A stretch of 39,773 bases of DNA from an uncultured Prevotellaceae bacterium (GTDB lineage Bacteria; Bacteroidota; Bacteroidia; Bacteroidales; Bacteroidaceae). The stretch is from contig CACYKX010000019.1 of NCBI GenBank assembly GCA_902775075.1, forward strand, positions 1 through 39,773, in the 5' to 3' direction. A program made the translations under genes and the position numbers. The notes below the pieces were generated by a model. The model did no database searches and had not been told where the DNA came from. It worked only from the letters and a program-made list of their open reading frames with translations. Shown here piece by piece: positions 10,333 through 39,715 of this stretch; position 1 is the first letter of the stretch, and every line of letters begins with the position of its first letter.

Positions 10333-11641
10333 CTCTATCGGGATTAAATAAAAGTTCGTGTGGTATTTCTTTATCTTGTTGTTCTTTAGCTATTATTGCT
10401 TTGAAAGTCTCAACGAGTCGACTTCCATTCTGTTTGGCAGCTTCAGCCTTCTTCTCCTGAAATTCGCGGGCGTTTTTCCGTAGTTTTTCTGCCAATGTAG
10501 GATTCTCCATGAGAGAAATCATGTGCTGAGCCAACTCTTCTACATTTCCCTTCTCTGCTATCAAAGCACATTGCTTTTCGCGGTTAAAGGATGGAGTTCC
10601 AGTTGTTTTATAAACGACAAGAGGTAACTCCAACTGCATAGCCTGCGTCATGGTACCAGCAATGTAGTCCATTTTGCAGGGCAACAAGGCAAATCGCGAT
10701 TTCTGTATATGGAGTAGCAGGTCGCAATGTTTCTCAAAGAAGGGGGTAAAGATAATGTTTTCTTTTACCCCCATTTTTTCTGCCATTGCGACTAATTCAG
10801 CCTTATATTCAACGTCCCCCCCCCCAACAAGATTTACAATAATATCGGGATACTTGTTCTTGACTATAGCCGTAGCCTCAATAGTATCCGGGAATCCTTT
10901 ATTTAGAGACATTCCCATTGCAAAGTTTACAAAGTCATATTCCTTTTCGACAGGTATAGGTTCCAACAACACACCCTTAGATGGGAATCCAAATTTAAAA
11001 ATCTTCACATCAGGAGCAATCTGCCGCAATAGGTCATAGTGCATCTTGCAATACACGCCAAAATACCGATGCTCCTTGAATATGCTCTTCTCTGTCGAAG
11101 CATTCTTGCTATCTACAATACCATGTTTGGAACGCTCAGGATTATTATAAATAGTTTGGCAAAGGCCTAATACAGGAACGTCCTTAATACCCAGCACCGT
11201 TGAAGAAATGTAAGCATTCTCCAATCCAACCATAAGCACTAAATCTGGTTTTATCTCATTAACCAACCGATGCACCTGTTTTACCATTGGATTCAGCCTT
11301 CGCCATAAGCAATCACTTTTTATGAGACGTTTCAGCAAAGTAGCTCTATCACAATTCACGAAGTTGTAATGAACATCGCCATCAGTATAGGACACTACAG
11401 ACTTCTTCAAGCCCGAGTGCGCAGAAATCACATGGAGTTCTATCTCGGGGTGCTTCTTAATCTCATCAATTATACCTACATCCCATGCTGCTATGTCACC
11501 ATACCCTTTTCCCTTTGTAGGCATCAGTAACAACCTTCTAATCATGGAATAGAGCCTTCTATCATCCAATGGCAGATGCTTTCGCACCTCAGCGGTACTG
11601 AAGTGGCAAATCATAACTATTTTAATTTTATCTTTAATCAT
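10325..11641 (-). CDS. GT4-like glycosyltransferase with an internal G10 tract
   Basis: 438 residues. The N-terminal half is divergent. The C-terminal half is GT-B/GT4 in style: FAMGMSLNKGFPDTIEA (about 241-257), IIVNLVGGGDVEYKAEL (267-283), and a donor-site region YIAGTMTQAMQLELPLVVYK. The G273-G275 codons are part of a run of ten G (10825-10816 on the coding strand). The reading frame is intact as given, and any slip of one or two bases would truncate the protein at about residue 275. It overlaps the genes on both sides by 8 bp. It presumably adds a sugar to the lipid-linked unit. Confidence 0.75.
   Translation of the reverse strand: MIKDKIKIVMICHFSTAEVRKHLPLDDRRLYSMIRRLLLMPTKGKGYGDIAAWDVGIIDEIKKHPEIELHVISAHSGLKKSVVSYTDGDVHYNFVNCDRATLLKRLIKSDCLWRRLNPMVKQVHRLVNEIKPDLVLMVGLENAYISSTVLGIKDVPVLGLCQTIYNNPERSKHGIVDSKNASTEKSIFKEHRYFGVYCKMHYDLLRQIAPDVKIFKFGFPSKGVLLEPIPVEKEYDFVNFAMGMSLNKGFPDTIEATAIVKNKYPDIIVNLVGGGDVEYKAELVAMAEKMGVKENIIFTPFFEKHCDLLLHIQKSRFALLPCKMDYIAGTMTQAMQLELPLVVYKTTGTPSFNREKQCALIAEKGNVEELAQHMISLMENPTLAEKLRKNAREFQEKKAEAAKQNGSRLVETFKAIIAKEQQDKEIPHELLFNPDRDD
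10816..10825 (-). repeat. G10 homopolymer inside a glycosyltransferase gene
   Basis: Ten consecutive G on the coding strand encode Gly-Gly-Gly and the first base of the Asp codon in the VGGGD motif. It is the longest homopolymer I see in the coding sequence, and with the G9 tract at 4566 is one of two such runs in this operon. A length change would switch the gene off. Confidence 0.8.
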
Positions 11642-13130
11642 GTCTATGTGCTATATTTTTTATCAACAGTTTCTCTTCTTGATTAAAAAGTAAAAAATGG
11701 CAGACCATACCATATACTAATACATAGGCGGTAATACCAACCATAAGTTTAAGCCAACTATCTATAACAAAAAAGGTTGATGCATAATAAGCGATAGCGG
11801 TAACAACTACCAAAACAGGTATTATAAGTGCATGGCACGAAAGGAAAAACAATTTGATATTGATACCCAATTGTTTCTTATAAAACAAGTTTATTACAAA
11901 TTGATAAACACACAATCCGAATGCCGTACCTACAGCCGCTCCAATTGCACCATATCGTGGAGAAAAAACACAAGCGACAATAATACCTAACAACGAGCAG
12001 GCGAATATCCGAATTGCCGTTTCCTTAATTCTGTTCTCCACATATACCAAGTCCTCTGCTATTTTCTGTGTTAACGACACGAGGTTTGATAATATTAACA
12101 AGAGAAGTACCCAATAGACATTGACAAAATCGACACCCACCCACAAATTCAAAAAAGAATGTCCAAATATAAAGAAACCACTGAAAATAATACCTATAAT
12201 AAATAGTTGTATTCGGCCAACGCGAACCATCAAATTCAAAATATCATCTCTTTTATTACCATGTACCATTCTTGATACTGTTGGTAAAAACAGTCCGTTA
12301 ATCGCTGAAGATAACGTATAGACCATCCCTTCAAGAGACATTCCTATAGCAAAAATTGCGATTTCACTACTATTAGATAACACACCCAATAATGATGGTA
12401 CTAATGATAAACGCAACCTTTGAGCTAAGCCACAACCGAATGCCCACACTGAGAAAGAAAAAATTCCTTTTAACTCATTCTTACCGAAGTAGTTCCATTG
12501 AATATTAAGTTTTGATTTCCTCTTGAAAACAATAAATTTAATAATGGAAGTAAGAAGTGCAAAGGCTCCGTTAATGAGAATCAAAGCGAAAACATCTGCG
12601 CCCAAATATAATGCGATACATACACCAAAAACAACTCCGACCCTATTAATCATCTCCAGAGTCCGTTCTTCCACAAAATATTCGTAAGCCATCATGGCTC
12701 CAGCCATTGGCTTAAACACAAAAGAAAGAACACTAAAAAGGCCCGCAATAATATAGAGGCCTTTCAGCCGCTCTACTTCAACAGCTGTAAGACCAGTGAA
12801 AACATCTGTTATAAAGAAATAGAATACAGCAAGGACTATAAATATGACCGCATCAATAATCAGATAAACTCTTGTCGTAATACCAAGCATTTTTTCCACC
12901 TTATCCTTGCTACCTTCAGCCCGATATTTTGCAATAAAGCGCTGAATTGCTTGGTGTAAGCCAAAATCGAGAATAAAATAAGAAATAAAGGAGTAAACCA
13001 AGCTATACAGCCCATAATCTGAAACTCCTATCTTTTTTATCATCCATGGTGTATAGAAGAAAGTTATGGCAATATTTAGGAATATCGCCACGTATGAGAT
13101 GATTGCGCCCTTTTTGATAGAACTTGTCAT
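11634..13130 (-). CDS. wzx: Wzx-type polysaccharide flippase (MOP superfamily)
   Basis: 498 residues with about 12-14 hydrophobic helices spread over the whole length. It begins SIKKGAIISYVAIFLNIAIT, followed by FFYTPWMIKKIGVSDYGLYS, the usual N-terminus of polysaccharide biosynthesis proteins of the MATE-like Wzx group. The FGLHQAIQRFIAKYR segment is also standard. It should move the undecaprenyl-PP-linked repeat unit across the inner membrane before polymerisation by the Wzy-like protein at 7.1-8.4 kb. It lies 5 bp from the upstream glycosyltransferase and overlaps the next gene by 8 bp. Confidence 0.9.
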   Translation of the reverse strand: MTSSIKKGAIISYVAIFLNIAITFFYTPWMIKKIGVSDYGLYSLVYSFISYFILDFGLHQAIQRFIAKYRAEGSKDKVEKMLGITTRVYLIIDAVIFIVLAVFYFFITDVFTGLTAVEVERLKGLYIIAGLFSVLSFVFKPMAGAMMAYEYFVEERTLEMINRVGVVFGVCIALYLGADVFALILINGAFALLTSIIKFIVFKRKSKLNIQWNYFGKNELKGIFSFSVWAFGCGLAQRLRLSLVPSLLGVLSNSSEIAIFAIGMSLEGMVYTLSSAINGLFLPTVSRMVHGNKRDDILNLMVRVGRIQLFIIGIIFSGFFIFGHSFLNLWVGVDFVNVYWVLLLLILSNLVSLTQKIAEDLVYVENRIKETAIRIFACSLLGIIVACVFSPRYGAIGAAVGTAFGLCVYQFVINLFYKKQLGINIKLFFLSCHALIIPVLVVVTAIAYYASTFFVIDSWLKLMVGITAYVLVYGMVCHFLLFNQEEKLLIKNIAHRHD

Positions 13131-13135
13131 TATCT

Positions 13136-14314
13136 CTAAATTAGGTTATTCGAATTGATTGGATATGCTTTGGAACAAGGACCACTCTCAAAGGTTATTT
13201 CATTACCTGACAATATACTTTCTGACAGCTTAACAAGTCTTTCTGCTGCTAGTTTTGCCGACCAGTCAGTTGATATAGTCTGATAGGCTTTCTTGCCATA
13301 CTCTTCACATATTTGTGGATTTTCATACAAATAAGCGACTTTATCAAACAACGACTCGGATGAACCGGATTTGAATACTAATCCGTTCCCTTTATCCTTC
13401 AAAAGGAAAGGCACAGAGCCAATCTCATGCGATGCGACACATGCACATCCAGCCCCCATTGCTTCATTGAGAACTGCTCCCCAGCCTTCGCCACGATCTG
13501 AGGTAAAAATGAAAATGTGGCTTTTACGCATACGCTCCAGCACTTCCAAATTAGGTATACCGCCTGTTAATATTACATATTTTTCAAGATTCTCTTTTTT
13601 CACTTGCTTATTGATTTCTTGCCATAGCGGTGTTGTGTTGGCGCCTATCATCTGTATCTCAAAATTCTTTCGCCCACTTTCCAATAGTCTTTTAGCAAGA
13701 GCAAGAGGAAGTTCGGGATGCTTCAAATCTATAAAACGAGCGCACCAAATAATTTGTATCTTTTCTTTACTTCGCTTTTCTATTACCTTTTCTATGTCAA
13801 TTTCTGGTATTTGTGTAAAATATGCAAACTTGTAACATCTTTCATGGTATAAATTACCTAAAAGACTTAAATCGTTAGCCATAAATGCACTTTGGCATAA
13901 AATACGGTAATTCGGATGAGCAAATTTCAGATATGGAAATAACGCACGTGCTCTAATAATATCTTTATATATTGGGCCTCTGAAATAACGCTCCGTTGAG
14001 CGGAATGTTAGTTTACCTGACTTTATCCGTTCTTTAACAAGTTCAATAGGTTCTCCACCTGTACGCATCACATCTGCTTTAGCAATCAACTCCTTGGCCA
14101 ATCGCTCATTCTCTTTTGATTCGTACATTTTTAGAATAAAAGGGTGGTCTTTGTAATAGTCATTCCCTTTCGAGGATTCACTAAAACAACCATATTGTTT
14201 GGTATTGTGACCAAATTCTATAAAATAGAAATTATCGCCAAGTATTGAGTATAACGCATCTGCCAAGGCTACTTGATGAGCGTTAATACTTGCATTAAGA
14301 TTGACAAATAGCAT
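13136..14314 (-). CDS. GT4 family glycosyltransferase
   Basis: 392 residues, GT-B fold. The C-terminal donor site reads FTSDRGEGWGAVLNEAMGAG (about 273-292), followed by CACVASHEIGSVPFLL. The KIQIIWCARFIDLKHPELPLAL segment near 200-221 is the usual GT4 start of the second Rossmann domain. It lies 2 bp from the deacetylase gene and 5 bp from the flippase gene, inside the operon. An earlier segment, MRTGGEPIELVKERI, may contact the acceptor. Sugar donor and linkage are unknown. Confidence 0.85.
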   Translation of the reverse strand: MLFVNLNASINAHQVALADALYSILGDNFYFIEFGHNTKQYGCFSESSKGNDYYKDHPFILKMYESKENERLAKELIAKADVMRTGGEPIELVKERIKSGKLTFRSTERYFRGPIYKDIIRARALFPYLKFAHPNYRILCQSAFMANDLSLLGNLYHERCYKFAYFTQIPEIDIEKVIEKRSKEKIQIIWCARFIDLKHPELPLALAKRLLESGRKNFEIQMIGANTTPLWQEINKQVKKENLEKYVILTGGIPNLEVLERMRKSHIFIFTSDRGEGWGAVLNEAMGAGCACVASHEIGSVPFLLKDKGNGLVFKSGSSESLFDKVAYLYENPQICEEYGKKAYQTISTDWSAKLAAERLVKLSESILSGNEITFESGPCSKAYPINSNNLI

Positions 14315-14316
14315 TT

Positions 14317-14991
14317 TTACCTCCTTTCGTATAATAATTGGAAAGCTTCAGCATACATCACACCTGCACGGCTGCCCCTCACCCTGGCCAATGCCTTGAT
14401 ACTTGACAGGCTGCGGGGATAGGGTTCTTCCATAACCTCTGTGTCATACATTGACATTATTTCCAATTTTTGATCAACAAAAGGCGTAATATCTACATAA
14501 ACGTTTGGCACAAAAACGTTGGACTGTGTAGCAAGTGCAAACTCGGTTTCAGAAAGTGCTTCTTGCATTAATATCTGTCTTATGAAAGGGAAACGGAACG
14601 ACTTAGTACAACTGTAAACAGCATTGAAAGCAACGCGATGATCAGAATGAACATCATTTGCAAACATCATATAGATAGTGTCAGGCTCTACGTTTTTAAT
14701 CACCTCGGACACTTTAGAAATAATCACACCGAGTTCTACCGTATGAAGAAAAATCGTTGGAAATTTCAAATCATAGGTCTTGGTAAAACCGTAAGTTTTT
14801 GAGATTTTCTCGATTCTTTCATTACGTCTTTTTACGCTTTCTACCGAATAACAGTTTGGATGGTCAGGCAAAATACTAGTGAGTATCATCCAGTATATCT
14901 CATCACCCGCATTCTTGTGTTTTAGTATTGTGCCACCACACCCTAATGTTTCATCATCAGGGTGGACGGCAACAAATAAGACTTTACTCAT
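14317..14991 (-). CDS. PIG-L/LmbE-family zinc deacetylase
   Basis: 224 residues, the common length for the family. The N-terminal zinc motif is AVHPDDETLGCGGTI (H10, D12, D13), and the third ligand region is NDVHSDHRVAF (H115, D117, H118). Members remove acetyl groups from N-acetylated sugars such as GlcNAc-PI, chitobiose and mycothiol precursors. In this operon it stands next to the carrier-protein genes. One reading is that it frees an amine on a hexosamine, which is then re-acylated from a carrier protein. That link is inference; the fold and metal site are clear. Confidence 0.85.
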   Translation of the reverse strand: MSKVLFVAVHPDDETLGCGGTILKHKNAGDEIYWMILTSILPDHPNCYSVESVKRRNERIEKISKTYGFTKTYDLKFPTIFLHTVELGVIISKVSEVIKNVEPDTIYMMFANDVHSDHRVAFNAVYSCTKSFRFPFIRQILMQEALSETEFALATQSNVFVPNVYVDITPFVDQKLEIMSMYDTEVMEEPYPRSLSSIKALARVRGSRAGVMYAEAFQLLYERR

Positions 14992-24576: not shown

Positions 24577-24600
24577 GTAAACTGTCAATTTTGACGTCCA
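24577..24600 (+). repeat. Left terminal inverted repeat of the IS66-type remnant
   Basis: Starts GTAAACTGTCAATTTTGACG. It pairs with the inverted copy at 25381-25404, with one difference in the first 22 bases. Confidence 0.75.
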
Positions 24601-25380: not shown

Positions 25381-25404
25381 AAGACGTCAAAATTGACAGC
25401 TTAC
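25381..25404 (-). repeat. Right terminal inverted repeat of the IS66-type remnant
   Basis: Read from 25404 inward on the minus strand it begins GTAAGCTGTCAATTTTGACG and matches the left end. Confidence 0.75.
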
Positions 25405-25441: not shown

Positions 25442-28210
25442 TTATGAGCCATGTAATGCGAGACGATACTTATAAAGAAATGAGAACGCGTAAAAATCAC
25501 CATTCCCGCGATTGTTTTTGGCCACTATACCGTTATCTACCAAGATTGACGTTAGCTGTTCCACAGTCATCCCCATCATCTCTTCTTTCTCGGCATTTGA
25601 CCGAATGACTTCTGTCAACAAATCTTCAAAAACCTGCCGTCTCATACTAATTCTATGATAACGCGCCTTTTCTGTAGTTGAAATAAAGTCGAATACATAT
25701 TGTATTGGTAAATTACCCTTCGCATTACGAATCAAATCATTCAGATACCCTTCCACTGCCTCCTTTCTAACCGATGAATTAATATAACAATTCTGATAAA
25801 GCACTGGGTAGCTTCGCCCGTCTTTTGTTATTCCGTCAGCAATCTGCTTTCGGACGGCCAATTGTAGCAAAGAGATAAAAGGACGCAAGCTAATGGTATC
25901 ATCAGCATTTTTTAGGTTTTTATAAAACCAATCATAACTGCGTCCCATGCGTGTTGTACCTTCCATATCAACTGTATCACCGAAGTAGGTGCTCATCATG
26001 GCATCAAGCATTTTCGTTTCATAAAGCGGTACAGCTTTTACTTCATAGTCTTTTCTGAAACTTGAAACAGTGTCAATAGGATATTCGCCATAAAGCTCCA
26101 TTAGCCGCCAGAATTTATTTGCTACTTCTCCTTTAAGCAACACATAGAAGAAATATGAATAAATCTCCTCCTTGTGCCACTCTATATCAATAGCCTGATT
26201 TTCGATGTCATTAATATTTGTCAAGCCGACTAAACCCTTAAACAGGTCGCGTCTAATGAACACCTTCGCTCCTATTCGAGAGAAGCGTCTAACTCTCCAA
26301 TATCTTATTAGTTCAGGGATCCAATTGTTCCACACTGATGGAGACACCATATCATCTAATTGGTCATAGATAATATCCAAATATGTTGGCACCTTTAACG
26401 ACAACAAGTATTCATCAAGTTCTTTCATTTCTTCCTCAATCTGCTTTGAGTACTGATCATCGACAATAAGTTCCAAAAGCTGCTCACGAGCAGTTATTGT
26501 ATCCGAAATATTTATTATCCTCAACGTCTCACTCAATTTATACTCCGGAAACTCTCTTTGTATATCACCAACAACTATGTTCCATGTGTAGATAAGCCAG
26601 AACTTGTATTTTTCTGCTGTATCTAAATCACCTATCTTTCCCACGTCGAAAATGCGATTTATTGACCGATCAATGGCATAAACAAAATGGAATTCATCAT
26701 TCTTCCCTGAGTTCTTTTTTATGAGAGCCACGGCCTGCGGTTGCTTTAAAGCATTGTAAATGTAAGACTTACCAGTACCTTTGCTGCCTATTACAAGATA
26801 CTTGTCGTGGTTCAACAAGTCGTTCATGCAACGACGGTAATAAAAGTGACGGTTACTTATATCATCCAATATCGACTGATTCTCAGCATAAAGATCAATT
26901 CCCGATAATGTTTCTGACGTATCTAACAAAATGGACTCCCTCAAAGCTTCTTTTGAGTGGATGTTATCATCGGATAAAACCCCACTGTGTTTGCGGATAC
27001 TCTTTGTGAGATTCTCGAAGAGTTCCACATATTCACGAAATTCTCCGTTCTTTACCGCTTCCGCAAAATCGCTTACAGTTTCTGCCACACTGCCTAACAC
27101 CTCGAAATCAGGTTGTCTTCCAATTGGATAGCAAGGAAAACTAATATTACTTTCACTGTCAATGGCATTGATAATACTATCCACATCTTTCGTGAACTGC
27201 CCAAAAAGAGCACGTCGTTGTGATCCGGCAGAAGGCAAAATAGAATCAACCAGGAAAGGCTCGACACGACTATTCTCCATCATTGTCTTAATAAAGAACT
27301 GTAATCCGGGCAGTGTTTGAACATCATTTCGGAAAAAACCTACCACAATATCAGCCAATGAACAAACAGCCAACCCCATAACATCATTAATGCCTGTCTT
27401 GGAGTCGATTAGAACGATATCTGGATGGATTGCATTATTAATGTCGTCAATCAAGGATCCGAACAAATCAATGGCATATCGAGTGTTGCTGATGTCCATT
27501 CGCGAAATACCCTCTAAATAATGATCAAAATGAGTATCTGAACTGTCAGCTGATATCCTATCCACACCCATATTACCAGCTGTCATTACAAAAATAGAAC
27601 CTCCGCCACTGAAAATATGGTCTACTTCCTGCAAATAATCTGTCACCATATTGGTATCAGAAAGTCCACATGACTTATCCAAAAGATACTCAACCAAGCC
27701 ATTGTGATTATTAAGTTCACCTGGATATTTCAAGAAAAAATTGTTGAGGCCCGGGGCCTCATAGTCGCAATCTATGGCCACCACTTTCTTTTCATATACA
27801 GATGACAAATACATAGCAAAAGCTGCCATAGCAGTGGTCCGGCCCATACCACCTTTATAGCTATAGAAAGAAACAACAGCAGGGTGAGTCGTTGTGTAAT
27901 TATTTTGTTTTCTTATCTTCAAACTTCCATTACGCCGATGACCACTATCCAGAATAATGGGGCCTTTTTGAGCAAATATTGATTTATAAAAAGGATCCTC
28001 CAATTGTCCATCTGTAAGACATTCCAATTCTGCTTCGTCGTATATTTGATTGATGGCATCCGACAGTTCTTGACTCTTATCTTCCGCCATGACGACATTT
28101 ACGAATAGGTTCTCATTCTTTCTGAGACACACCCTGTAATCCTTTACAGCAGGTCTATAGTTATCAAGCAACCGTGCAATATCCTCACATTTTTTCAATA
28201 TCTTAATCAT
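25442..28210 (-). CDS. Fusion of KGGxGR (ParA-like) ATPase and a second P-loop ATPase
   Basis: 922 residues with two nucleotide-binding units. The first has the deviant Walker A KGGMGRTT at 119-126, the DCDYEAPG switch at 147-154 and IVLIDSKTG near 265-272, the marks of the KGGVGR-variant ParA/MinD-like ATPases. The second has GSKGTGKS at 475-482 and a Walker B-like LDIIYDQLDDM at 611-621, followed by a helical C-terminus, in the style of Sll1717-type P-loop ATPases. The N-terminal 110 residues are unassigned. It is the last gene of a four-gene run, 3 bp after the HEPN-like gene. A role as sensor or motor of a phage-defence system is inferred from the neighbours. Confidence 0.8.
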   Translation of the reverse strand: MIKILKKCEDIARLLDNYRPAVKDYRVCLRKNENLFVNVVMAEDKSQELSDAINQIYDEAELECLTDGQLEDPFYKSIFAQKGPIILDSGHRRNGSLKIRKQNNYTTTHPAVVSFYSYKGGMGRTTAMAAFAMYLSSVYEKKVVAIDCDYEAPGLNNFFLKYPGELNNHNGLVEYLLDKSCGLSDTNMVTDYLQEVDHIFSGGGSIFVMTAGNMGVDRISADSSDTHFDHYLEGISRMDISNTRYAIDLFGSLIDDINNAIHPDIVLIDSKTGINDVMGLAVCSLADIVVGFFRNDVQTLPGLQFFIKTMMENSRVEPFLVDSILPSAGSQRRALFGQFTKDVDSIINAIDSESNISFPCYPIGRQPDFEVLGSVAETVSDFAEAVKNGEFREYVELFENLTKSIRKHSGVLSDDNIHSKEALRESILLDTSETLSGIDLYAENQSILDDISNRHFYYRRCMNDLLNHDKYLVIGSKGTGKSYIYNALKQPQAVALIKKNSGKNDEFHFVYAIDRSINRIFDVGKIGDLDTAEKYKFWLIYTWNIVVGDIQREFPEYKLSETLRIINISDTITAREQLLELIVDDQYSKQIEEEMKELDEYLLSLKVPTYLDIIYDQLDDMVSPSVWNNWIPELIRYWRVRRFSRIGAKVFIRRDLFKGLVGLTNINDIENQAIDIEWHKEEIYSYFFYVLLKGEVANKFWRLMELYGEYPIDTVSSFRKDYEVKAVPLYETKMLDAMMSTYFGDTVDMEGTTRMGRSYDWFYKNLKNADDTISLRPFISLLQLAVRKQIADGITKDGRSYPVLYQNCYINSSVRKEAVEGYLNDLIRNAKGNLPIQYVFDFISTTEKARYHRISMRRQVFEDLLTEVIRSNAEKEEMMGMTVEQLTSILVDNGIVAKNNRGNGDFYAFSFLYKYRLALHGS

Positions 28211-28213
28211 GGG

Positions 28214-28672
28214 TCAATACTCATTAAAAACTGTAACGAAAATCTTCTCTAAATCTTTTTTGAATGGGCCAACTACAGCAGCCGTTTCACTATTGCTCAA
28301 ACTACTGTCATAACGGACTTCTTCAGACCAACCTTTTGTCAACTTTGAGAGTTGCCTCCATTCAACATCCAAAGTCTCACTACCTTCTGTAGCCATTACA
28401 ACCAACTTGTGTAGGTCATGCGTCAATAGTTTTTGGTAGTCTAAATTACTCTTGTTATAACTTCTTGTTAAATGCAATTTATTCATCACATAATATTTCA
28501 GTGCACATTCCATGACGTAACCACCAATATAATAGCAGTCTGATACAACATGATTTCTGTAGTTTGCATCGCTAATGCTTGGAATGAGTCTAAAAATATA
28601 CTGACAATTCAAATAATGCCGTATCGCAGCCCGTCTAAATGAATCACGAGACCATAGTTTTTCCGTAGGCAT
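28214..28672 (-). CDS. HEPN-domain-like protein
   Basis: 152 residues, helical. YIGGYVMECALKYYVMNK (about 48-65) matches the second helix of HEPN proteins, which usually read GYxxECALKxxl. HDLHKL at 85-90 matches the HDLxxL helix that follows. The RNase-type RxxxxH motif is not obvious, so catalysis is uncertain. HEPN proteins often act as toxins or RNases in defence and toxin-antitoxin systems. It stands 3 bp from the double ATPase gene and 17 bp from the nuclease-like gene. It may be the effector controlled by the ATPase, or a structural partner. Confidence 0.7.
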   Translation of the reverse strand: MPTEKLWSRDSFRRAAIRHYLNCQYIFRLIPSISDANYRNHVVSDCYYIGGYVMECALKYYVMNKLHLTRSYNKSNLDYQKLLTHDLHKLVVMATEGSETLDVEWRQLSKLTKGWSEEVRYDSSLSNSETAAVVGPFKKDLEKIFVTVFNEY

Positions 28673-28689
28673 ACAGTATAGAATAATAA

Positions 28690-29355
28690 TTAATTGAAAT
28701 CGAACAAGTAATGCACTATCTGCACTTCTTTATTATCCATATCTGTGTGATGCGAATGACAGTTCATCCAAGGATGAGTGCCGACTGGTTTACTTAGCGT
28801 TTCTTGACTCCGCATCTTTTGGATAAGTCTTGCATTAATGGCATGCGTCACGCTGTCAATAGTCCCATCGAGCACATAACCCAGCAAGCAACCTAAAGGA
28901 TAGCGCTTGTTTAAATAATGGTCAATACCCGTCTCAATGTACCTTTCTATCACTTTTGCTGCACTCGTCTTTGTTTTTCTGCCAGTTTTTTGCACATCGT
29001 TCTCGATGAGATTCTTAGCCTCAACGTAGAACATAAACCTCTGACCGCTCCAGTTGTGCTGAAAAACTAGATCAATTTTGGCTGCCGACTTCGCTTTCTT
29101 CTTATTGTCAAGAATGGCAGGACTAAAGAACGGATGTTCACATTCCGGGTGGATATCATAATCTACTGACTGCTGACTATTATGAATGAGTACATACAGA
29201 TTGGCTGTGATGTTTTCTTCGCCCCAGTCCGAATTTATGCACTTTTCTCGCTTTAGTATCACACATGCCCATTTGAGTAACTCCACACACCTCTGTTCGA
29301 AGACAGCCCGTACTTTGGCAGCTATTACCGGATCCGCATTTCCTATCGCCCCCAT
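28690..29355 (-). CDS. Small PD-(D/E)XK nuclease-like protein
   Basis: 221 residues. The core reads AAKIDLVFQHNWSGQRFMFY then VEAKNLIEND, that is D95, E112 and K114 in the PD-(D/E)XK arrangement (D-x16-E-x-K). An upstream acidic helix (DWGEENITANLY) may supply the further acidic residue. Several Cys and His residues near the C-terminus (HPWMNCHSHHTDMD) could bind metal. It begins 2 bp after the methyltransferase stop, so it is likely to be the cleaving partner of that enzyme or a DNA-targeting effector. No named restriction enzyme family is recognised. Confidence 0.7.
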   Translation of the reverse strand: MGAIGNADPVIAAKVRAVFEQRCVELLKWACVILKREKCINSDWGEENITANLYVLIHNSQQSVDYDIHPECEHPFFSPAILDNKKKAKSAAKIDLVFQHNWSGQRFMFYVEAKNLIENDVQKTGRKTKTSAAKVIERYIETGIDHYLNKRYPLGCLLGYVLDGTIDSVTHAINARLIQKMRSQETLSKPVGTHPWMNCHSHHTDMDNKEVQIVHYLFDFN

Positions 29356-29357
29356 AA

Positions 29358-32330
29358 CTAAAGATTTAAGAAGTCATTCACAATTGATGCTGCATCATCA
29401 TAAGCTTGCATACGAGACCAAAAGCGCTTTTGGTTTGGTTTTATGATGTATGCACGTTTACCATCATAGTACTTGAGCGTCTTATGCATATAGACACTCT
29501 CGGAATGACGCGTCCAAAGAGATTTGTCTATCTTGCGCATAACGTCAGCAAAAGAAGTCATTGATCCTTCCTCAACACCTTCGCTTTCTGTATCGAAATC
29601 AAGAGATATGAGTTGTAAAGGGTCATTAACATTACCGGCATAGACTGTGACCTTGGTGAGAAGTTCAGTTCCTTTTAATAATTTGGATAATGTTGCATAA
29701 AGGGTGTCGGCATAATGTCTCGCTTCTTCCAGAATAACCCTGTGATATCCAACGGCATCAATTCCTTTCTGGAAAATGCCGAAATTATAGTCCAAGGTAT
29801 CATTGACATAAATAATATCACGCTGAGAAAGACCGAGAGCCTTTTCAAACTCTTTCTCAGCTTTCTCTTCCATCTTATGGATTTCTATTGTATTATGAAC
29901 AACCTGACTCGATTCTGAATAAAGAGAATCAAAACAGTCAATAATAACACGCCGAGCCTCATCAGAAAGGCCCTCAAATGGAGACGGAATATTCAATACC
30001 TCGACACTTGTGATTTGCTCTCGTTCAATACCCCAGGATGACGTCGTCAAAAGTAGGAAATACTTAGCCAGGCGCGAATTGAGATAAGTTGTCAATATCT
30101 TTTTGTCATCTAAACTGGCACTATTCAAAACGGTCGCAGTGGATGTACAATATACTTTGTCGGTAAATAAGGAACACGCTATCTCACCTTTATGCTGCCC
30201 TTGTTTGAATACAACATAAGGTAAATCAAACAAGCCATCTTTAGGCATCCTATACTTCCGTGTTGAATTATTCTTAGCAATTGACAGATCTGTCCAATAT
30301 CTAGAGATAGTCTCAGTGCCAATCATCTTTTCCGGAATGAATTCCAATGCTGTAGCATCAGCAATCAGGCCACGGCCTGTAATCCAACCATTATTTCTAA
30401 AGTACTGCTTGAGGGTTCTGCCCGAAAACCTTTCTATTAACTTGTAGCCATAATAGTTTCCCCATGAAGCCACTTTCAGAATATTGGAACGCGGATTCTG
30501 GCAATCGGACATTGGTAATATCTTGACATCACTCTCGTCAATCACCAAAGCATCAATAATATTTGACTTTATGAAAGTCTTAGGAGAATAGTATAGAAGG
30601 ACACCTTCCCTGTCAGCAGGACTGGCCGTAAAATAGGCCACACAGACAGGACAACTTGCACTCGAGAAAAGGCTGCCACCATAAGAGACAGGAGCCTTTC
30701 GGAATATTGAGAGATTATCTATTCTGTGCACCTTGTTCTCATTGAAAAACCATTTTCTGAACTTGGCATAGCCTCCACCTGTATTGAACAGTACTTTGGA
30801 TGTGAAAACAAGTGCTATATCGCCGTTAGGACAAAATTGTGTTGCCTTATGCACAAATGGTAATACATACTCTTGAGCAAAGTGCAGCCGGTTACAATAA
30901 TCCGTGATTTCTGAAGCCAAATTCTTTGTGCCATACGGAGGATTACCCACAAGCAACTTCACTTTGGGGAAATCCTTCACCTCGACCTCTGATATGGTAT
31001 TCCGTCGCCATAAGTTATGTCCCTGTCTTCCCTCCAAGGTATCATCCTCAGGATCATAAATCAGATATGGTAATCTGTGATTTCCGCTGTTCCATAATGT
31101 TTTTGGATCCAATTGGTCAATAAGTGTCAGATATAAACTGAAAGCAGCAACACGAATGGCGGTTGCGTCTATTTCAATGCCATAGATGTTTTCCTTAAGT
31201 ATCGATACCAAATCTTCAAATGTGATGGTCTTCCCTTGATGGTTTTGCTTCCAGCGCCTGATTAAGCGCTTGTATCCCTCAACAAGGAAAATACCCGAGC
31301 CACAAGCAATATCCAGCAAAGGATAGTCACTGACACCCTGAGAAGTAGGAAGGACTTCAGAAAGTATCATATCTGCAAGAGAGAAGGGGGTATAGAACTG
31401 CCCCTTTTCGCGCCTGTATTCTCCCAAAAAATGTTCGTAAATCTCGCTGATGAGACCTATGTGTATAATCTCAAAATTGAATAGTGGTTCACGTTCAAAC
31501 AAGCGGGGCTGGTGAGAGAAATCTCCATCAAGGAAACAATCTCTCACAATATCGAGATGCTCTAAGGTGACAAAAGACTCTTCGTCGTTCACCATTGTGG
31601 TAATATTACCATTAAACTGCTCTTGAAGCTTCGCATACAGACGATAAGTGGCATCTTTATCTTTTAAAACATCGAAATAACTCGTCGCGCCAGGTTTTAT
31701 TGACTCATATAGACCGGCCTCTTTTGCAGCACCTTTGTCTTCTAAAAACAAGATAAACAAAGAACGAATCAGCAGAGAATGAATAACATCGTGATTTAAC
31801 CCTTTGTTCTCAAGTCTCCTTGCTGCTTCGACCATGCTACGTATGAGATAAGCATCTACACGGCGGTCTTTCTTAATCCTTCTCCTAATTGTTACATCTG
31901 CCGTCCAAAGTGTTCCACTATCAACATTAATCCGGCTGAATAGATTCTCAATCAATGCTAAATCCTCGCTTACAGAACCAGCGTGCAACAAAATAGACTT
32001 CAACTGTTTATCATCTTCCTTTTCTGAGTTGAGATTGACGGGCTTCTCATAGCAGTTATATATACGTATCTCCGTATCAGATGTAACATACAATAGCAGG
32101 ATACGCTGATAATTCCATGCATTATGCTGCACCTGAGCTATCCTGCGCATTGCGTTTTCGTCAAATGATTTGACATTTATGAAAAGTACAACTGGCTTAC
32201 CCGCACTGAAATACACACTATCTGCCTGTACCTTGACGATGTCTGCATAGTCGGGGTATCGTGAAGGTACATTAATGGCCGATATGAGATAACCATCGAA
32301 CCCTAATTGTTGTAAGATTGTATTCATCAT
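29358..32330 (-). CDS. Large Eco57I/type IIG-like N6-adenine DNA methyltransferase
   Basis: 990 residues. The order fits type IIG-like enzymes: an N-terminal endonuclease-like region (1-140), a helical linker with SLFILFLEDKG (190-200), motif X GQFYTPFSLADMI (310-322), SAM-binding DIACGSGIFL (340-349), the catalytic NPPYG at 463-467, then about 500 residues for DNA recognition. In the N-terminal region the strand VVLFINVKSF has N52-V-K54 where an active nuclease would carry E/D-x-K, so cleavage by this part is doubtful. A separate nuclease is encoded just downstream. The start may be the first or second Met. Confidence 0.85.
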   Translation of the reverse strand: MMNTILQQLGFDGYLISAINVPSRYPDYADIVKVQADSVYFSAGKPVVLFINVKSFDENAMRRIAQVQHNAWNYQRILLLYVTSDTEIRIYNCYEKPVNLNSEKEDDKQLKSILLHAGSVSEDLALIENLFSRINVDSGTLWTADVTIRRRIKKDRRVDAYLIRSMVEAARRLENKGLNHDVIHSLLIRSLFILFLEDKGAAKEAGLYESIKPGATSYFDVLKDKDATYRLYAKLQEQFNGNITTMVNDEESFVTLEHLDIVRDCFLDGDFSHQPRLFEREPLFNFEIIHIGLISEIYEHFLGEYRREKGQFYTPFSLADMILSEVLPTSQGVSDYPLLDIACGSGIFLVEGYKRLIRRWKQNHQGKTITFEDLVSILKENIYGIEIDATAIRVAAFSLYLTLIDQLDPKTLWNSGNHRLPYLIYDPEDDTLEGRQGHNLWRRNTISEVEVKDFPKVKLLVGNPPYGTKNLASEITDYCNRLHFAQEYVLPFVHKATQFCPNGDIALVFTSKVLFNTGGGYAKFRKWFFNENKVHRIDNLSIFRKAPVSYGGSLFSSASCPVCVAYFTASPADREGVLLYYSPKTFIKSNIIDALVIDESDVKILPMSDCQNPRSNILKVASWGNYYGYKLIERFSGRTLKQYFRNNGWITGRGLIADATALEFIPEKMIGTETISRYWTDLSIAKNNSTRKYRMPKDGLFDLPYVVFKQGQHKGEIACSLFTDKVYCTSTATVLNSASLDDKKILTTYLNSRLAKYFLLLTTSSWGIEREQITSVEVLNIPSPFEGLSDEARRVIIDCFDSLYSESSQVVHNTIEIHKMEEKAEKEFEKALGLSQRDIIYVNDTLDYNFGIFQKGIDAVGYHRVILEEARHYADTLYATLSKLLKGTELLTKVTVYAGNVNDPLQLISLDFDTESEGVEEGSMTSFADVMRKIDKSLWTRHSESVYMHKTLKYYDGKRAYIIKPNQKRFWSRMQAYDDAASIVNDFLNL

Positions 32331-32410
32331 AACAGAGCTCAGTTATATATATGAACGTAGTTTTGCCCTCATTATTGTATTAGCTGGGCATTTTATAGTC
32401 TATTTCGCTA

Positions 32411-32418
32411 CAAAAATA
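32411..32418 (-). promoter_or_regulatory. Candidate Bacteroidales -7 element upstream of the methyltransferase operon
   Basis: The minus strand reads TATTTTTG, a full match to the TAnnTTTG consensus of Bacteroidales sigma-ABfr promoters, about 80 bases before the methyltransferase ATG. The -33 TTTG is not clear. The 136-bp spacer holds no other gene. Confidence 0.35.
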
Positions 32419-32466
32419 CTGCCTATGAAAGACATTGAATCTAAGCATTTTTAGTAAGACTTATTA

Positions 32467-32712
32467 TCATCTTACAGATGACTCGCTTACAACCACTATC
32501 CTCGTCAATCGCTTCACAAAATCTGTGACCTTCTCATGCTTCTCTTTGTCCAGCACATTCGGCAACCTCTTCTTCAATTCGACCAAATCGTGTTCAAGTA
32601 CCGCACGAAAGGAGCTGTCTTCGGCCAAACATTGCTTATAGCACTCCAACTGCTCGTCATAGTGGACATTGTCAAATATGATAATCTTGACTATAGCGTA
32701 GTGCAGGACTCA
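32467..32712 (-). pseudogene. Out-of-frame C-terminal part of the DUF4365-like gene
   Basis: About 81 sense codons follow a TGA that lies in this frame just upstream. They read VLHYAIVKIIIFDNVHYDEQ, then a charged helical tail ending in VVVSESSVR and TGA at 32469-32467. The segment begins inside the 3' end of the 458-codon gene and overlaps its last 13 codons. The composition is protein-like and there is no good start (only TTG at 32649), so it is best read as the displaced C-terminus of that gene. Confidence 0.6.
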
Positions 32713-34048
32713 GCATCGGATATCGCTCGCCTCCTTCAGTGTGATAACGGAAAGAAAAGGCATCGTATGACTTATAGAGTTTTCCACTATAAGGCTTGAA
32801 GAACAACATCAACAGCAACTTGCCCGCTGAAATGACTGAAAAAAATGGCTTTGGTTCTTTAGAGGCATTATTGGGCACACCAGGCTCGCAACGATAGACA
32901 TGCTGGACGACATTGAGGTACTGCTGAAATCCTTGCTCGTCGAAGTCATCGAAGTTGAAAGTGCCCGGTATCTGCATCTGCTTCCACATCGCATCAATAT
33001 CTCTGTAAATGGCATAGGTAGAGGACACTTCTTCTGTAATGCGTTCCATTTCTCCTCCAAAGTCTATTGGAGCCTCATTCTCGCAAAGGGTTAGTTTCTT
33101 TATATTCATCAAAGCCATCAGGAACTCCATCTTATGAAGTGCTTCCGCAATGCCACCAGTTCTGGGGTATTTGATCTCCGCTCTGGATTGTATGGTATTC
33201 TCATACCCCTTTCTGGGTCCAGCCAGAAAGAAGCAGTCACCGATGTTGATTACCTCATACTTTTGCTCGTAACGACGCGTGTAGCCAGAGAAGAAGATGA
33301 CATCTCCCACCTTTACTGGCTCGTCGATATGCGCTGTAGCCCTCGCGGTGACTTCAATATCGCTAACAGGAATACTGGCATAGGGAGTTTCCTGATAGAG
33401 GACAAGAGGGTAATCAATCAGTTGAAGTTCCAAAGGAGTATCTTTCTGAAAACGGAACGATGTCTCCATCTTCAAAAGATAGTTGCCTTTCAATGCTTCT
33501 TCCAAACTCAGACTTGGCTTTCCTACAAAGCTGGTTTGCTTTCTGGCGTCACGAATGAAGTTAACCATCTCGTCTTCAACAATTCGCGTAACGGTAGGCA
33601 ATGGAAGCAGCGTAAACTCCATCGAGTTCGATTCTTTTCCACGATTGTTTTGTCTGGCCTGTTTGACGAGCGCATGGATGGTGTGCGGGGACAATGCCCT
33701 ATAGAATATCTTCCTTTGGTTATAATCGTCCTTTAATAATTCAACGACAAAGAAGAACAGGCCTCCCTCGCTCATAAGGATATTCAACTCATCAAAAGTA
33801 AGGCGGTAATGCTCTTTGTCTTGAAACGCGTCAACTTCCGTTCCCTTAATCTGCGACCGTAGCGTCCCTACGAGATTGGGATTCTTATCCGGCTCCCCAT
33901 CATACACGAAAATGCTGCCATCCCACAGCGGTGTCTTGTCGTTCTCTTCGAGATACGACCTCAAACAAGCCGAGGCATCGACATAGTCGCGCACGGCATT
34001 TACCGCATTCCGTTCTTTCTTCGTAGTGGTGGACATATTGGGGTTCAA
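32672..34048 (-). CDS. DUF4365-like PD-(D/E)XK protein, C-terminus probably frameshifted
   Basis: 458 residues as read. The N-terminal region has WDGSIFVYDGE (D43) followed by GTLRSQIKGTEVD (Q66-I-K68), the D...QxK form of the PD-(D/E)XK active site seen in DUF4365-type proteins of defence loci. A strand GLFFFVVEL follows. The middle has DVIFFSGYTRRYEQKYEVIN and helices without a known family. The frame ends ALRYSQDYHI-stop at 32672, but an adjacent frame continues with about 80 plausible residues from 32712 to 32467. The ancestral protein was probably about 530 residues. It is the first gene of the defence-like block. Confidence 0.7.
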   Translation of the reverse strand: MNPNMSTTTKKERNAVNAVRDYVDASACLRSYLEENDKTPLWDGSIFVYDGEPDKNPNLVGTLRSQIKGTEVDAFQDKEHYRLTFDELNILMSEGGLFFFVVELLKDDYNQRKIFYRALSPHTIHALVKQARQNNRGKESNSMEFTLLPLPTVTRIVEDEMVNFIRDARKQTSFVGKPSLSLEEALKGNYLLKMETSFRFQKDTPLELQLIDYPLVLYQETPYASIPVSDIEVTARATAHIDEPVKVGDVIFFSGYTRRYEQKYEVINIGDCFFLAGPRKGYENTIQSRAEIKYPRTGGIAEALHKMEFLMALMNIKKLTLCENEAPIDFGGEMERITEEVSSTYAIYRDIDAMWKQMQIPGTFNFDDFDEQGFQQYLNVVQHVYRCEPGVPNNASKEPKPFFSVISAGKLLLMLFFKPYSGKLYKSYDAFSFRYHTEGGERYPMLSPALRYSQDYHI

Positions 34049-34087
34049 GACTTAGATTTTATGTTCTGGCAGGCAGTATCGAACGTA

Positions 34088-34154
34088 AGATGTATGATGT
34101 TTGATGGATGATGTAATAAGAGATGTATGATGGATGAAGTATAATGGATGATGA
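34088..34154. repeat. Heptamer repeat tract GATGTAT/GATGGAT (1)
   Basis: Degenerate 7-bp units (GATGTATGATGTTTGATGGA and similar) follow the 3' end of the second partial S23 copy. Confidence 0.75.
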
Positions 34155-34156
34155 CT

Positions 34157-34236
34157 TCATTTCTCACTACCGCCTACATTATCAAGTTTCTTACATCTGT
34201 GCATCAATACTTTCACTAATTCCTCGCAATCGGAAG
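34157..34236 (-). pseudogene. Truncated 3' copy of the S23 gene (shortest)
   Basis: The minus strand reads SSDCEELVKVLMHRCKKLDN and six more codons before TGA at 34159-34157. The DCEELVKxLxHRCKKLD core matches the C-terminus of the full S23 gene at 34607-35092. Repeat tract lies on both sides. Only the last helix is present, so it is not a functional gene. Confidence 0.7.
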
Positions 34237-34267
34237 ATGTATGATGTTTGATGGATGATGTATGATG
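34235..34267. repeat. Heptamer repeat tract GATGTAT/GATGGAT (2)
   Basis: About five units separate the two partial S23 copies. The tract begins directly at the TAA of the longer copy. Confidence 0.75.
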
Positions 34268-34400
34268 TTATTCCACTCCGTCTAGCTTCTTACATCGATG
34301 CACCAAGATTTTTACCAATTCTTCGCAGTCGTTATAGAGAGAATCATGTTGCTTATCGGTCAGATCTGCCCTGAAAGTTTCAAGTCTCTCTCGCTCGATG
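34268..34400 (-). pseudogene. Truncated 3' copy of the S23 gene (longer)
   Basis: About 43 codons on the minus strand, including LTDKQHDSLYNDCEELVKIL then VHRCKKLDGVE and TAA at 34270-34268. They align without gaps to the C-terminal helices of the full gene downstream of LTDVQYQSLYTDCDELVKVL. The 5' end fades into an 11-bp repeat. It lacks a start codon and the first three helices. Confidence 0.75.
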
Positions 34401-34404
34401 TCCC

Positions 34405-34446
34405 CTAAAGGAGGACTAAAGGAGGACTAAAGGAGGGCTAAAGGAT
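34405..34446. repeat. 11-bp tandem repeat CTAAAGGAGGA
   Basis: Three full units at 34405, 34416 and 34427 (the last ending GGG) and a partial fourth at 34438, at the 5' end of the longer truncated S23 copy. Confidence 0.85.
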
Positions 34447-34606
34447 GGATGATGGATGATGTATGATGGATGATGTTTGATGTAAGATGGCAGAGGGATG
34501 AAGTAATCAGATGTATGATGTTTGATGGATGATGGATGATGTATGATGGATGATGTATGATGGAAGATGTAGGATGTAGGATGGATGATGGATGATGTTT
34601 GATGTA
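34444..34606. repeat. Heptamer repeat tract GATGTAT/GATGGAT (3)
   Basis: About 20 degenerate units run up to the stop codon of the full S23 gene. The minus-strand open frame across them (HHTSSIIHHPSS and so on) is a by-product of the repeat. Confidence 0.85.
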
Positions 34607-35092
34607 TCATTTCTTCTTTCCGTCTTTATCTTCATTTTCATCTATCTTTTTGCAACGATGAGTGAGTACTTTTACAAGTTCGTCACAGTCTGTGTACAGA
34701 CTCTGGTACTGCACGTCAGTGAGGTAGTTGTTGCGATGAAGCAAGTCCAGCCAATAGAGGCTTTCGCGAGCTTCTTTTAAGGCTATGTAAGACTTTGCTT
34801 TGAAGTCTGCTGTACTGATGGCACTTGTAGTTTCAGCGTTGTTGGCACCGATACTCGTGCCACTTCTTAGCAACTGGTTACAGAGGACAGCGACTGCCTG
34901 TAGGTGTACTGGCACTCGCGATGTATGATGGCTGATGTCTGAGGGCTGATGTTGTTTGCTGCCGCGATTATACTTCTGACATCTTACATCATACTTCAGA
35001 CTTGCTTGCTCAAGCAGGTAGTCGTTGAGTTTGATCACTCTGTCGCCAAAGGCGAGGCATTTCGCTTGTATCGCGTCTGCTATGCTACTCAT
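34607..35092 (-). CDS. Four-helix-bundle (S23/TIGR02436) protein with a repeat-encoded insert
   Basis: 161 residues against the usual 115-125. Family marks are the QLLRSGTSIGANNAETTSAI segment (about 72-91), KSYIALKEARESLYWLDLL, and a C-terminal DCDELVKVLTHRCKK helix. The excess is mostly an insert at about residues 38-62 (NRGSKQHQPSDISHHTSRVP), partly encoded by the GATGNNT repeat found in the spacers. The family is named after proteins encoded in 23S rRNA intervening sequences and includes the diversity-generating-element protein Avd; no function is known for most. No reverse transcriptase is present. Repeats start at its stop codon. Confidence 0.8.
   Translation of the reverse strand: MSSIADAIQAKCLAFGDRVIKLNDYLLEQASLKYDVRCQKYNRGSKQHQPSDISHHTSRVPVHLQAVAVLCNQLLRSGTSIGANNAETTSAISTADFKAKSYIALKEARESLYWLDLLHRNNYLTDVQYQSLYTDCDELVKVLTHRCKKIDENEDKDGKKK
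34919..34951 (-). repeat. In-frame heptamer repeat inside the S23 gene
   Basis: The plus strand reads GATGTATGATGGCTGATGTC and continues for two further units. It encodes QPSDISHHTS in the S23 protein and nearly equals the repeat inside the dehydratase gene at 22057-22093. Confidence 0.75.
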
Positions 35093-36718: not shown

Positions 36719-37087
36719 CTACAAATCCTTGCGGATTGTTGTTATTAAACCTGATATTTGTCGTTCTATCTCCATTACATTGTCAAGTAATGATTGATAA
36801 TTTTCGTTAGTTAAATATCCAACATTGTTTGCTATAAGCAATTGAGTTTCTACTTCATAGGCACTACCCAAGGCAGTATCGAGGAAATGAGCAAAGTCTG
36901 CATCAGATGGTCTTGCTGAACCTTCAGCTATATTGCTACTAATGCTAACCACTGCTCGTTGAAGCTGGTCGCAAAGGCCTTTCTTTTCAAACCAAGGCAT
37001 GTCCGAAGTGACTTGGTAAACCTTCGATGCATATGCGACAGCATCTTGCCACACCTTGTAATTGCGAAAGTTGCGTGATTTATTCAT
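36719..37087 (-). CDS. Four-helix-bundle (S23/TIGR02436) protein
   Basis: 122 residues, the standard length. The family pattern is complete: FRNYKVWQDAVAYASKVYQV at the start, GLCDQLQRAVVSISSNIAEG in the second helix, ADFAHFLDTALGSAYEVETQ in the third, and a final helix NVMEIERQISGLITTIRK. It is acidic-amphipathic and soluble, and probably forms small ring-like oligomers as Avd does. The function is unknown. Both ends are flanked by the same AACGATAAC repeat, and a truncated copy of its last helix lies upstream at 37284-37388. Confidence 0.85.
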   Translation of the reverse strand: MNKSRNFRNYKVWQDAVAYASKVYQVTSDMPWFEKKGLCDQLQRAVVSISSNIAEGSARPSDADFAHFLDTALGSAYEVETQLLIANNVGYLTNENYQSLLDNVMEIERQISGLITTIRKDL

Positions 37088-37466: not shown

Positions 37467-37778
37467 TTATTTACGTTTCCTTTGCTTATCGAAGAGCTTG
37501 GAGTGGGATCCTAGACGCACGAGACGGATTTCTTTATGCTCGGGGTCTTTCCATATTAGTAAGAAGTCATCCTCGATATGACACTCCATACAGTTTTTAT
37601 ACTGTCCCTTTAGGGGATGTGGTAGGTACTCTGCCGGTACAACACCTTCATACCCAAGGTGTTCAAGGACTTTTTGAAGTTCATTAAGTTTATGTTCATC
37701 GAACTTTACAGCCTTTAAGTCCTTCTTAAACTGAGAGGATTGCTTGAGCGTATAGACGTAACTGGGACTCTGTTCCAT
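37467..37778 (-). CDS. YafQ-family RelE-like mRNA interferase toxin
   Basis: 103 residues. It has the YafQ pattern: basic helix SQFKKDLKAVKFDEHKL, LPHPLKGQYKNCMECHIEDD (H54, H67), the strand FLLIWKD, and the catalytic-type RLGSHSKLF (H92, F96) at the C-terminus. Such toxins cleave mRNA at the ribosome and are neutralised by the antitoxin encoded just upstream (5-bp gap). The order antitoxin-toxin is standard, and both genes should be repressed by their complex. Confidence 0.88.
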   Translation of the reverse strand: MEQSPSYVYTLKQSSQFKKDLKAVKFDEHKLNELQKVLEHLGYEGVVPAEYLPHPLKGQYKNCMECHIEDDFLLIWKDPEHKEIRLVRLGSHSKLFDKQRKRK

Positions 37779-39343: not shown

Positions 39344-39715
39344 CTAAACTACTATTCTTTCTTTTTCTAGTTCATCGGAACATCCGAAATTGTAGAGTAA
39401 ACCCAACTTGTAGCCTGTGGCATGAAGGTAATTGTAAACTTGAGACCGGTGAGCATCGTCTAACGCGCTTACCGCCTTCAGTTCTACAATTATCTTCCCA
39501 TAGCATACGAAGTCTGCTTTGTAAGTTTGTTTTAACTCTACCCCATCGTATGTGATTTTCAATTCCTTTTCACGTTCGTACGGAATGTTGCGCCTTTGGA
39601 ATTCTATTTCCAGTGCTTCCTGATAGACAGCTTCAAGGAAGCCGTGACCGAGCTTATTGTAAACATGGAACGCTGCTCCGTTGATTGCATAAGTAAGGTC
39701 ACTGTATAGCAACAT
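39344..39715 (-). CDS. GxxExxY protein (PDDEXK_3 family)
   Basis: 123 residues, the family length. The name-giving motif is G25-F-L-E28-A-V-Y31 in LGHGFLEAVYQEAL. The nuclease-like core reads YKADFVCYGKIIVELKAVSA with D68 and E78-L-K80, as in PD-(D/E)XK folds. It ends GLLYNFGCSDELEKERIVV, the standard tail. Biological role unknown; such genes are often found near polysaccharide loci and rRNA-type insertions. It is flanked by direct repeats of about 45 bp, and the spacer after its stop again has the ACACAGATCTTACGGAT type of sequence. Confidence 0.88.
   Translation of the reverse strand: MLLYSDLTYAINGAAFHVYNKLGHGFLEAVYQEALEIEFQRRNIPYEREKELKITYDGVELKQTYKADFVCYGKIIVELKAVSALDDAHRSQVYNYLHATGYKLGLLYNFGCSDELEKERIVV

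Follow-up and report, generated by a model that had tools for sequence, protein, structure and literature searches.

A block of five minus-strand genes (g1–g5; 25442..34048) in a 39,773-nucleotide contig of an uncultured Prevotellaceae bacterium (CACYKX010000019.1, analysed whole and hereafter called the window) probably represents two defence modules of known kinds lying side by side, an unusual juxtaposition set amid polysaccharide genes. By family and motif, g2 and g3 form a predicted restriction-modification (R–M) pair, and g4 and g5 a fused version of the PADLOC candidate PDC-M28, a widespread candidate phage-defence unit made of a HEPN protein (M28A), a KGGVGR ATPase (M28B), and an Sll1717-like ATPase (M28C). 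A sequence-only reading had taken all five genes for one composite system. The open reading frames (ORFs), the intergenic gaps, and the motifs on which it relied are all present as described; the single system, however, is here replaced by two testable units.

The two modules recur separately. Across nuclease loci from other genomes, a methyltransferase gene lies on the same strand in 62 of 63, as counted with a methyltransferase profile that includes the methyltransferases of those very loci; not all 63 are independent, because two of them, L022 and L023, show no difference across the compared stretch. Neither M28A nor M28C occurs within 6 kb downstream in any of the 55 R–M loci having at least 2.5 kb of downstream sequence, and just one of them (L031) shows a lone M28B-like match. 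The locus of the closest named nuclease relative (L001) has the R–M pair without the HEPN–ATPase genes, among what by eye are glycan-like genes. Seen from the other side, M28B and M28C are both found in 35 of 46 loci examined (window included; L063, L121, L137, L142, L146–L150, L152, and L153 are left out of this ratio), with a HEPN gene within 200 bp in 34 of the 35 and the two ATPases fused in 20. Thirty of these 35 loci come from 24 genomes, the remainder being the window and four plasmids, and only in the window does this R–M pair accompany the unit. The A–B–C adjacency is a conditional count, since loci were chosen for matching M28C or g5, and an R–M pair further off would be missed because several M28 loci are short. 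This neighbourhood survey had been set beforehand as the refuting test of the composite system; the five genes do not recur together in the loci surveyed, and we reject a single five-gene system.

The earlier suggestion that a methyltransferase and a nuclease make up an R–M pattern is borne out. g2 matches the Pfam families N6_Mtase (5.9e-18) and Eco57I (4.5e-17), and its GNPP and CGSG motifs are kept in at least 95% of 54 aligned methyltransferases. It had been called type IIG-like, a label that agrees with its best PADLOC profile but not with its N-terminus. The residues shared there by 95% of the 54 methyltransferases include no ExK, and the alignment reads N-V-K in the window, D-V-F in L001, and S-V-P in L002 (21 alignment rows inspected by eye). 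With no conserved nuclease motif in its N-terminal part, the protein does not combine nuclease and methyltransferase active sites, and we reject a type IIG assignment. Matches to PglX-type models reach 39.8 bits in PADLOC and fall far below the cut-off in NCBIfam (48 versus 500 bits); a PDB sequence search returned only a distant type I methyltransferase.

The nuclease is a separate protein, and 35 relatives all keep its D95, E112, and K114, in agreement with its first assignment to the PD-(D/E)XK nucleases. Its predicted model lies nearest to R.SwaI, weakly (the fold lists for both nuclease and HEPN protein are re-rankings of Foldseek's own candidates), and a PDB sequence search with the nuclease profile found nothing. 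No Pfam, NCBIfam, or PADLOC model matches g3 above its cut-off, and the same holds for three relatives (L021 in Pfam, L030 and L012 in NCBIfam). The R–M pair defines a nuclease family that no model in these libraries captures above its cut-off. The nearest named relatives of g3 are L001 (52% identity) and L002 (46%), from metagenome-assembled genomes of a Bacteroidaceae and a Bacteroidales member, respectively, and the family spans Bacteroidota to Alphaproteobacteria. Searches of the phage and plasmid collections gave no match to the window nuclease, and the nuclease of L030 matches three plasmids; the sole locus from the viral_contigs collection (L058) is identical to a genome locus, L020, a Rhodobacter contig. 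One further match (G268; E 4.5e-4, with an internal stop) was left out. Five methyltransferase–nuclease overlaps of 130–529 bp in this survey are probably artefacts of the longest-ORF starts used. With an adjacent methyltransferase carrying S-adenosylmethionine-binding and catalytic motifs and a nuclease with D..ExK, the pair shows the features of a type II R–M system encoded by separate genes.

Some R–M loci of this family carry further genes. Downstream of the pair, L030 encodes an OLD-TOPRIM ATPase and a UvrD helicase (10695–14554), which we take to be Gabija-like; similar-sized ORF pairs follow the R–M pair in several other alphaproteobacterial loci, among which L030 is the only one scanned. 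A 158-aa ORF of the same locus (6313–6789), with no Pfam or NCBIfam match, overlaps the methyltransferase start by 4 bp, and ORFs of its size recur in many alphaproteobacterial loci.

The second module is recognized chiefly through g5. As first proposed, this protein is a double ATPase: a MinD/ParA-type KGGVGR domain (residues ~104–315) matches PDC-M28B (7.4e-28, residues 104–315) and NCBIfam AAA_KGGVGR (123.7 bits; cut-off 90), and an Sll1717-like P-loop domain (~449–789) matches PDC-M28C (3.2e-20, residues 449–789), the NCBIfam Sll1717 model itself staying below its cut-off (51 versus 75 bits). Matches to ParA in the PDB sequence search lie at E 0.005–0.006. The part of the block made up of g4 and g5 thus corresponds to an already named candidate. 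The unit is common: in the phylum of G006, 23 of 299 sampled genomes match the M28C profile, against none of 14 controls. g5 itself matches 16 of 393 genomes of the order of G001 (four over most of its length). No match to g5 was found in the phage collection and none was confirmed in viral_contigs. Plasmid relatives keep the gene order, with the ATPases encoded as one protein in Pantoea and Nostoc and as two in Calothrix and Enterobacter; a Pseudomonas plasmid has the HEPN protein and M28B only. Some relatives lie on plasmids near integrase genes and, in Pantoea, near a ParB gene; the scan of M28 neighbours covered ten of them.

In four long proteins of 1328–1790 aa (L126:6607–11979, L127:6157–10143, L128:6016–11091, and L137:2943–7220), M28C is fused to a calcineurin-like metallophosphoesterase and NACHT; genes for a HEPN protein and a KGGVGR ATPase lie upstream in L126, L127, and L128.

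The predicted model of g4 aligns best to solved HEPN structures, as expected from its original annotation as a HEPN protein. It has no direct match to PDC-M28A and joins M28A through a profile iterated on its own hits and seeded partly with g4 itself. The HEPN proteins of Calothrix, Nostoc, and Enterobacter match the PADLOC profile; neither the window protein nor those of Pantoea and Pseudomonas do. Pfam HEPN matches the two cyanobacterial ones at or above cut-off. By phmmer, g4 matches the Pantoea HEPN protein of L060 (5.6e-8), itself without a PDC-M28A match. No HEPN match was confirmed in viral_contigs; an alignment search across 399 genomes of the family of G002 gave no matches, an empty answer that is uninformative.

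Canonical Rx4-6H is absent from g4; just two of the 37 distinct M28A sequences show the pattern, two others being too short to tell (the 42 alignment rows included five repeats of the same gene, and counts were retaken over 37). Instead, g4 carries E55xxxK59, H85, and R120-Y121. Among the 36 distinct M28A sequences compared at these residues, E55 is kept in 36, K59 in 33, H85 in 36, and R120 in 35, with the alignment of distant rows less certain around H85. A retained R, an upstream H, and Ex3[KR] are the features of the alternative HEPN-T site of AF0298, and the set in g4 resembles, at the level of sequence, the active site proposed for AF0298-type HEPN proteins in 2013 (in the available part of PMC3710099). 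The absence of Rx4-6H would suit a non-enzymatic HEPN protein, serving as a nucleotide-binding or scaffold subunit while the ATPase halves do the work. We regard this as possible but doubtful, given that E55, H85, R120, and Y121 are near-invariant even though distant aligned members share only 13–27% identity with g4. The conserved E/K/H/R set provides a concrete active-site hypothesis.

Taken as two modules, the block suggests the following working model, in which we infer what the enzymes do, what sets off the response, and which way control runs between ATPase and HEPN protein. In the first module, g2 would recognize a site and methylate adenine in the DNA of the host, and g3, encoded by its own gene, would cut unmodified DNA; these activities are suggested by the families to which the proteins belong, by their conserved catalytic residues, and by the near-strict pairing of the two genes. 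In the second, g5 would hold or sense an infection signal via its nucleotide state and release or activate g4, which would most likely cleave RNA through the alternative site formed by E55, K59, H85, and R120-Y121 and so stop growth of the infected cell. The proposed toxin-effector pattern of HEPN and P-loop ATPase is consistent with this, as the pair looks like an effector/regulator unit.

The same pair could instead be a toxin–antitoxin or element-maintenance unit with no role in phage defence, the ATPase acting as antitoxin for a HEPN RNase. Such a role was proposed in 2013 for the dyad of the MAE_18760 HEPN protein and a ParA/Soj ATPase (Anantharaman et al. 2013, PMC3710099), in which, like in the window, a small HEPN gene lies beside a SIMIBI ParA-like ATPase, and the integrase and ParB genes near plasmid relatives fit it as well. 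In the available part of that paper, however, the MAE_18760 HEPN protein is listed as keeping Rx4-6H, in contrast to nearly all M28A sequences, and the dyad as described there has no second P-loop ATPase. The metallophosphoesterase–NACHT fusions of M28C in the four long proteins examined are also more sensor-effector-like, and we consider a toxin–antitoxin role unlikely.

Two observations weigh against two merely adjacent modules: g2–g5 are packed like a single transcript, with operon-like gaps of 2, 17, and 3 bp, and a relative of the nuclease (P0010) and a partial relative of the HEPN protein (P0084, 99 aa) both list a longest contig of 48434 bases, which may be one contig or two. On these grounds functional coupling is possible within the lineage of the window, for which the test by separate recurrence is weak because few loci are closely related to it. 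PrrC guards EcoprrI, and by analogy a two-layer system may be envisaged in which the HEPN–ATPase unit guards the R–M pair, so that inhibition of restriction by a phage leads it to kill or stall the cell; the spacing and the shared contig figure favour it, but the lack of M28A and M28C downstream of 55 R–M pairs and of this R–M pair in 34 of 35 M28B–M28C loci makes it improbable. A further point in favour of such a guard is that PMC3710099 lists several HEPN genes of the PF05168 type in clusters with R–M operons; HEPN-T genes, too, are placed near such operons there. More improbable still is its most specific version, in which a PDC-M28 unit was captured by an R–M operon in this lineage and its double ATPase unleashes a non-canonical HEPN RNase once restriction is blocked or overwhelmed.

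The reading as two neighbouring modules leaves g1 outside both. Its core, NDKTP..DG....Q-x-KG, is conserved in 61 relatives, most of ~510 aa. One of them (P0088; 99% identical) has 522 aa, showing that the window copy stops earlier than longer, intact copies elsewhere; another (P0087; 100% identical, 454 aa) ends early at the same place. The relatives begin at the fifth residue of the listed ORF; the true start is probably an ATG that lies 12 bases downstream of the TTG given there. There is no direct Pfam match at E 0.1; the DUF4365 likeness noted earlier holds through a distant relative (P0143; 31% identical over 36%) that carries a precomputed PF14280 (DUF4365), with the correction that g1 is truncated. 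With a single-sequence profile, relatives of g1 were absent from the fetched R–M and M28 loci. g1 is thus a shortened neighbour that is not tightly linked, and its membership of either module is unsupported.

Coordinates of the five genes in the window
Gene	Position	Strand	Length	Assignment
g1	32672..34048	-	458 aa (listed start TTG)	DUF4365-like, C-terminally shortened
g2	29358..32330	-	990 aa	predicted N6-adenine DNA methyltransferase of R–M pair
g3	28690..29355	-	221 aa	predicted stand-alone PD-(D/E)XK restriction nuclease of R–M pair
g4	28214..28672	-	152 aa	HEPN protein, M28A-like
g5	25442..28210	-	922 aa	fused double ATPase (M28B + M28C)

g1 is separated from g2 by 341 bp. Base composition differs mildly among the five genes (GC content 36.6% in g4, 39.1% in g5, 40.7% in g2, 42.9% in g3, and 45.8% in g1). 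At least six of 15 flanking ORFs are polysaccharide genes in a Pfam scan, encoding a glycosyltransferase, a fucosyltransferase, a flippase-type protein, two epimerase-type proteins, and a polysaccharide export protein. Promoter and terminator scans gave counts no higher than the shuffled level, and neither an Rfam match nor a tRNA was found. The flanks also harbour a YafQ-type toxin gene (37467–37778), a PDDEXK_3 protein (39344–39715), and two four-helix-bundle proteins of the 23S rRNA intervening sequence type (34607–35092 and 36719–37087); by eye, a small ORF resembling the latter adjoins the R–M pair in L001. GATG-rich short repeats, dense and mostly spaced by 14 nt, fill 34077–34612 between g1 and the first four-helix protein. 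Just downstream of g5, a 22-nt inverted repeat (24577–24598 and 25383–25404; 95% complementary, 784 nt apart) possibly delimits an insertion element that is small or has decayed.

In line with the sequence-only reading, the block is not BREX: the distant PglX-type matches of the methyltransferase are the only ones among the five proteins. DUF499-centred BREX-related systems bring together HEPN, ATPase, and N6-methyltransferase genes as the window does, but are built, in the available part of PMC12839542, around a DUF499 ATPase and include a helicase. PglZ, BrxC, DUF499 ATPase, and helicase are unmatched among the five proteins (Pfam, E 0.1), and we reject both assignments. Models of DISARM, Zorya, Septu, and Druantia are not among the PADLOC matches of g1 and g3–g5, nor among the best 25 of 46 families for g2, no system-by-system examination having been made. 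In the literature searched, 'PDC-M28', 'KGGVGR', and 'Sll1717' were not found. Among the sources as available, most PDCs of the core defensome still await validation (PMC12988326), PDCs occur in rumen genomes (PMC13356809), MinD/ParA-like and calcineurin domains appear in other conflict systems (PMC7159879), and four validated systems have HEPN domains in a text that mentions neither ParA nor MinD (PMC13092281).

The closest counterparts are those of the individual modules. Like type II R–M systems with separate genes, the window pair combines adjacency, N6-methyltransferase motifs, and a PD-(D/E)XK motif, with R.SwaI as the nearest nuclease structure; it differs in its large, Eco57I-type methyltransferase, whose N-terminal region has no conserved nuclease motif. 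Relative to PDC-M28, the window has M28B and M28C fused, a HEPN protein too diverged for the PDC-M28A profiles, and a position behind an R–M pair, whereas the match of both ATPase profiles to g5, the HEPN gene directly upstream, and the gene order are the same.
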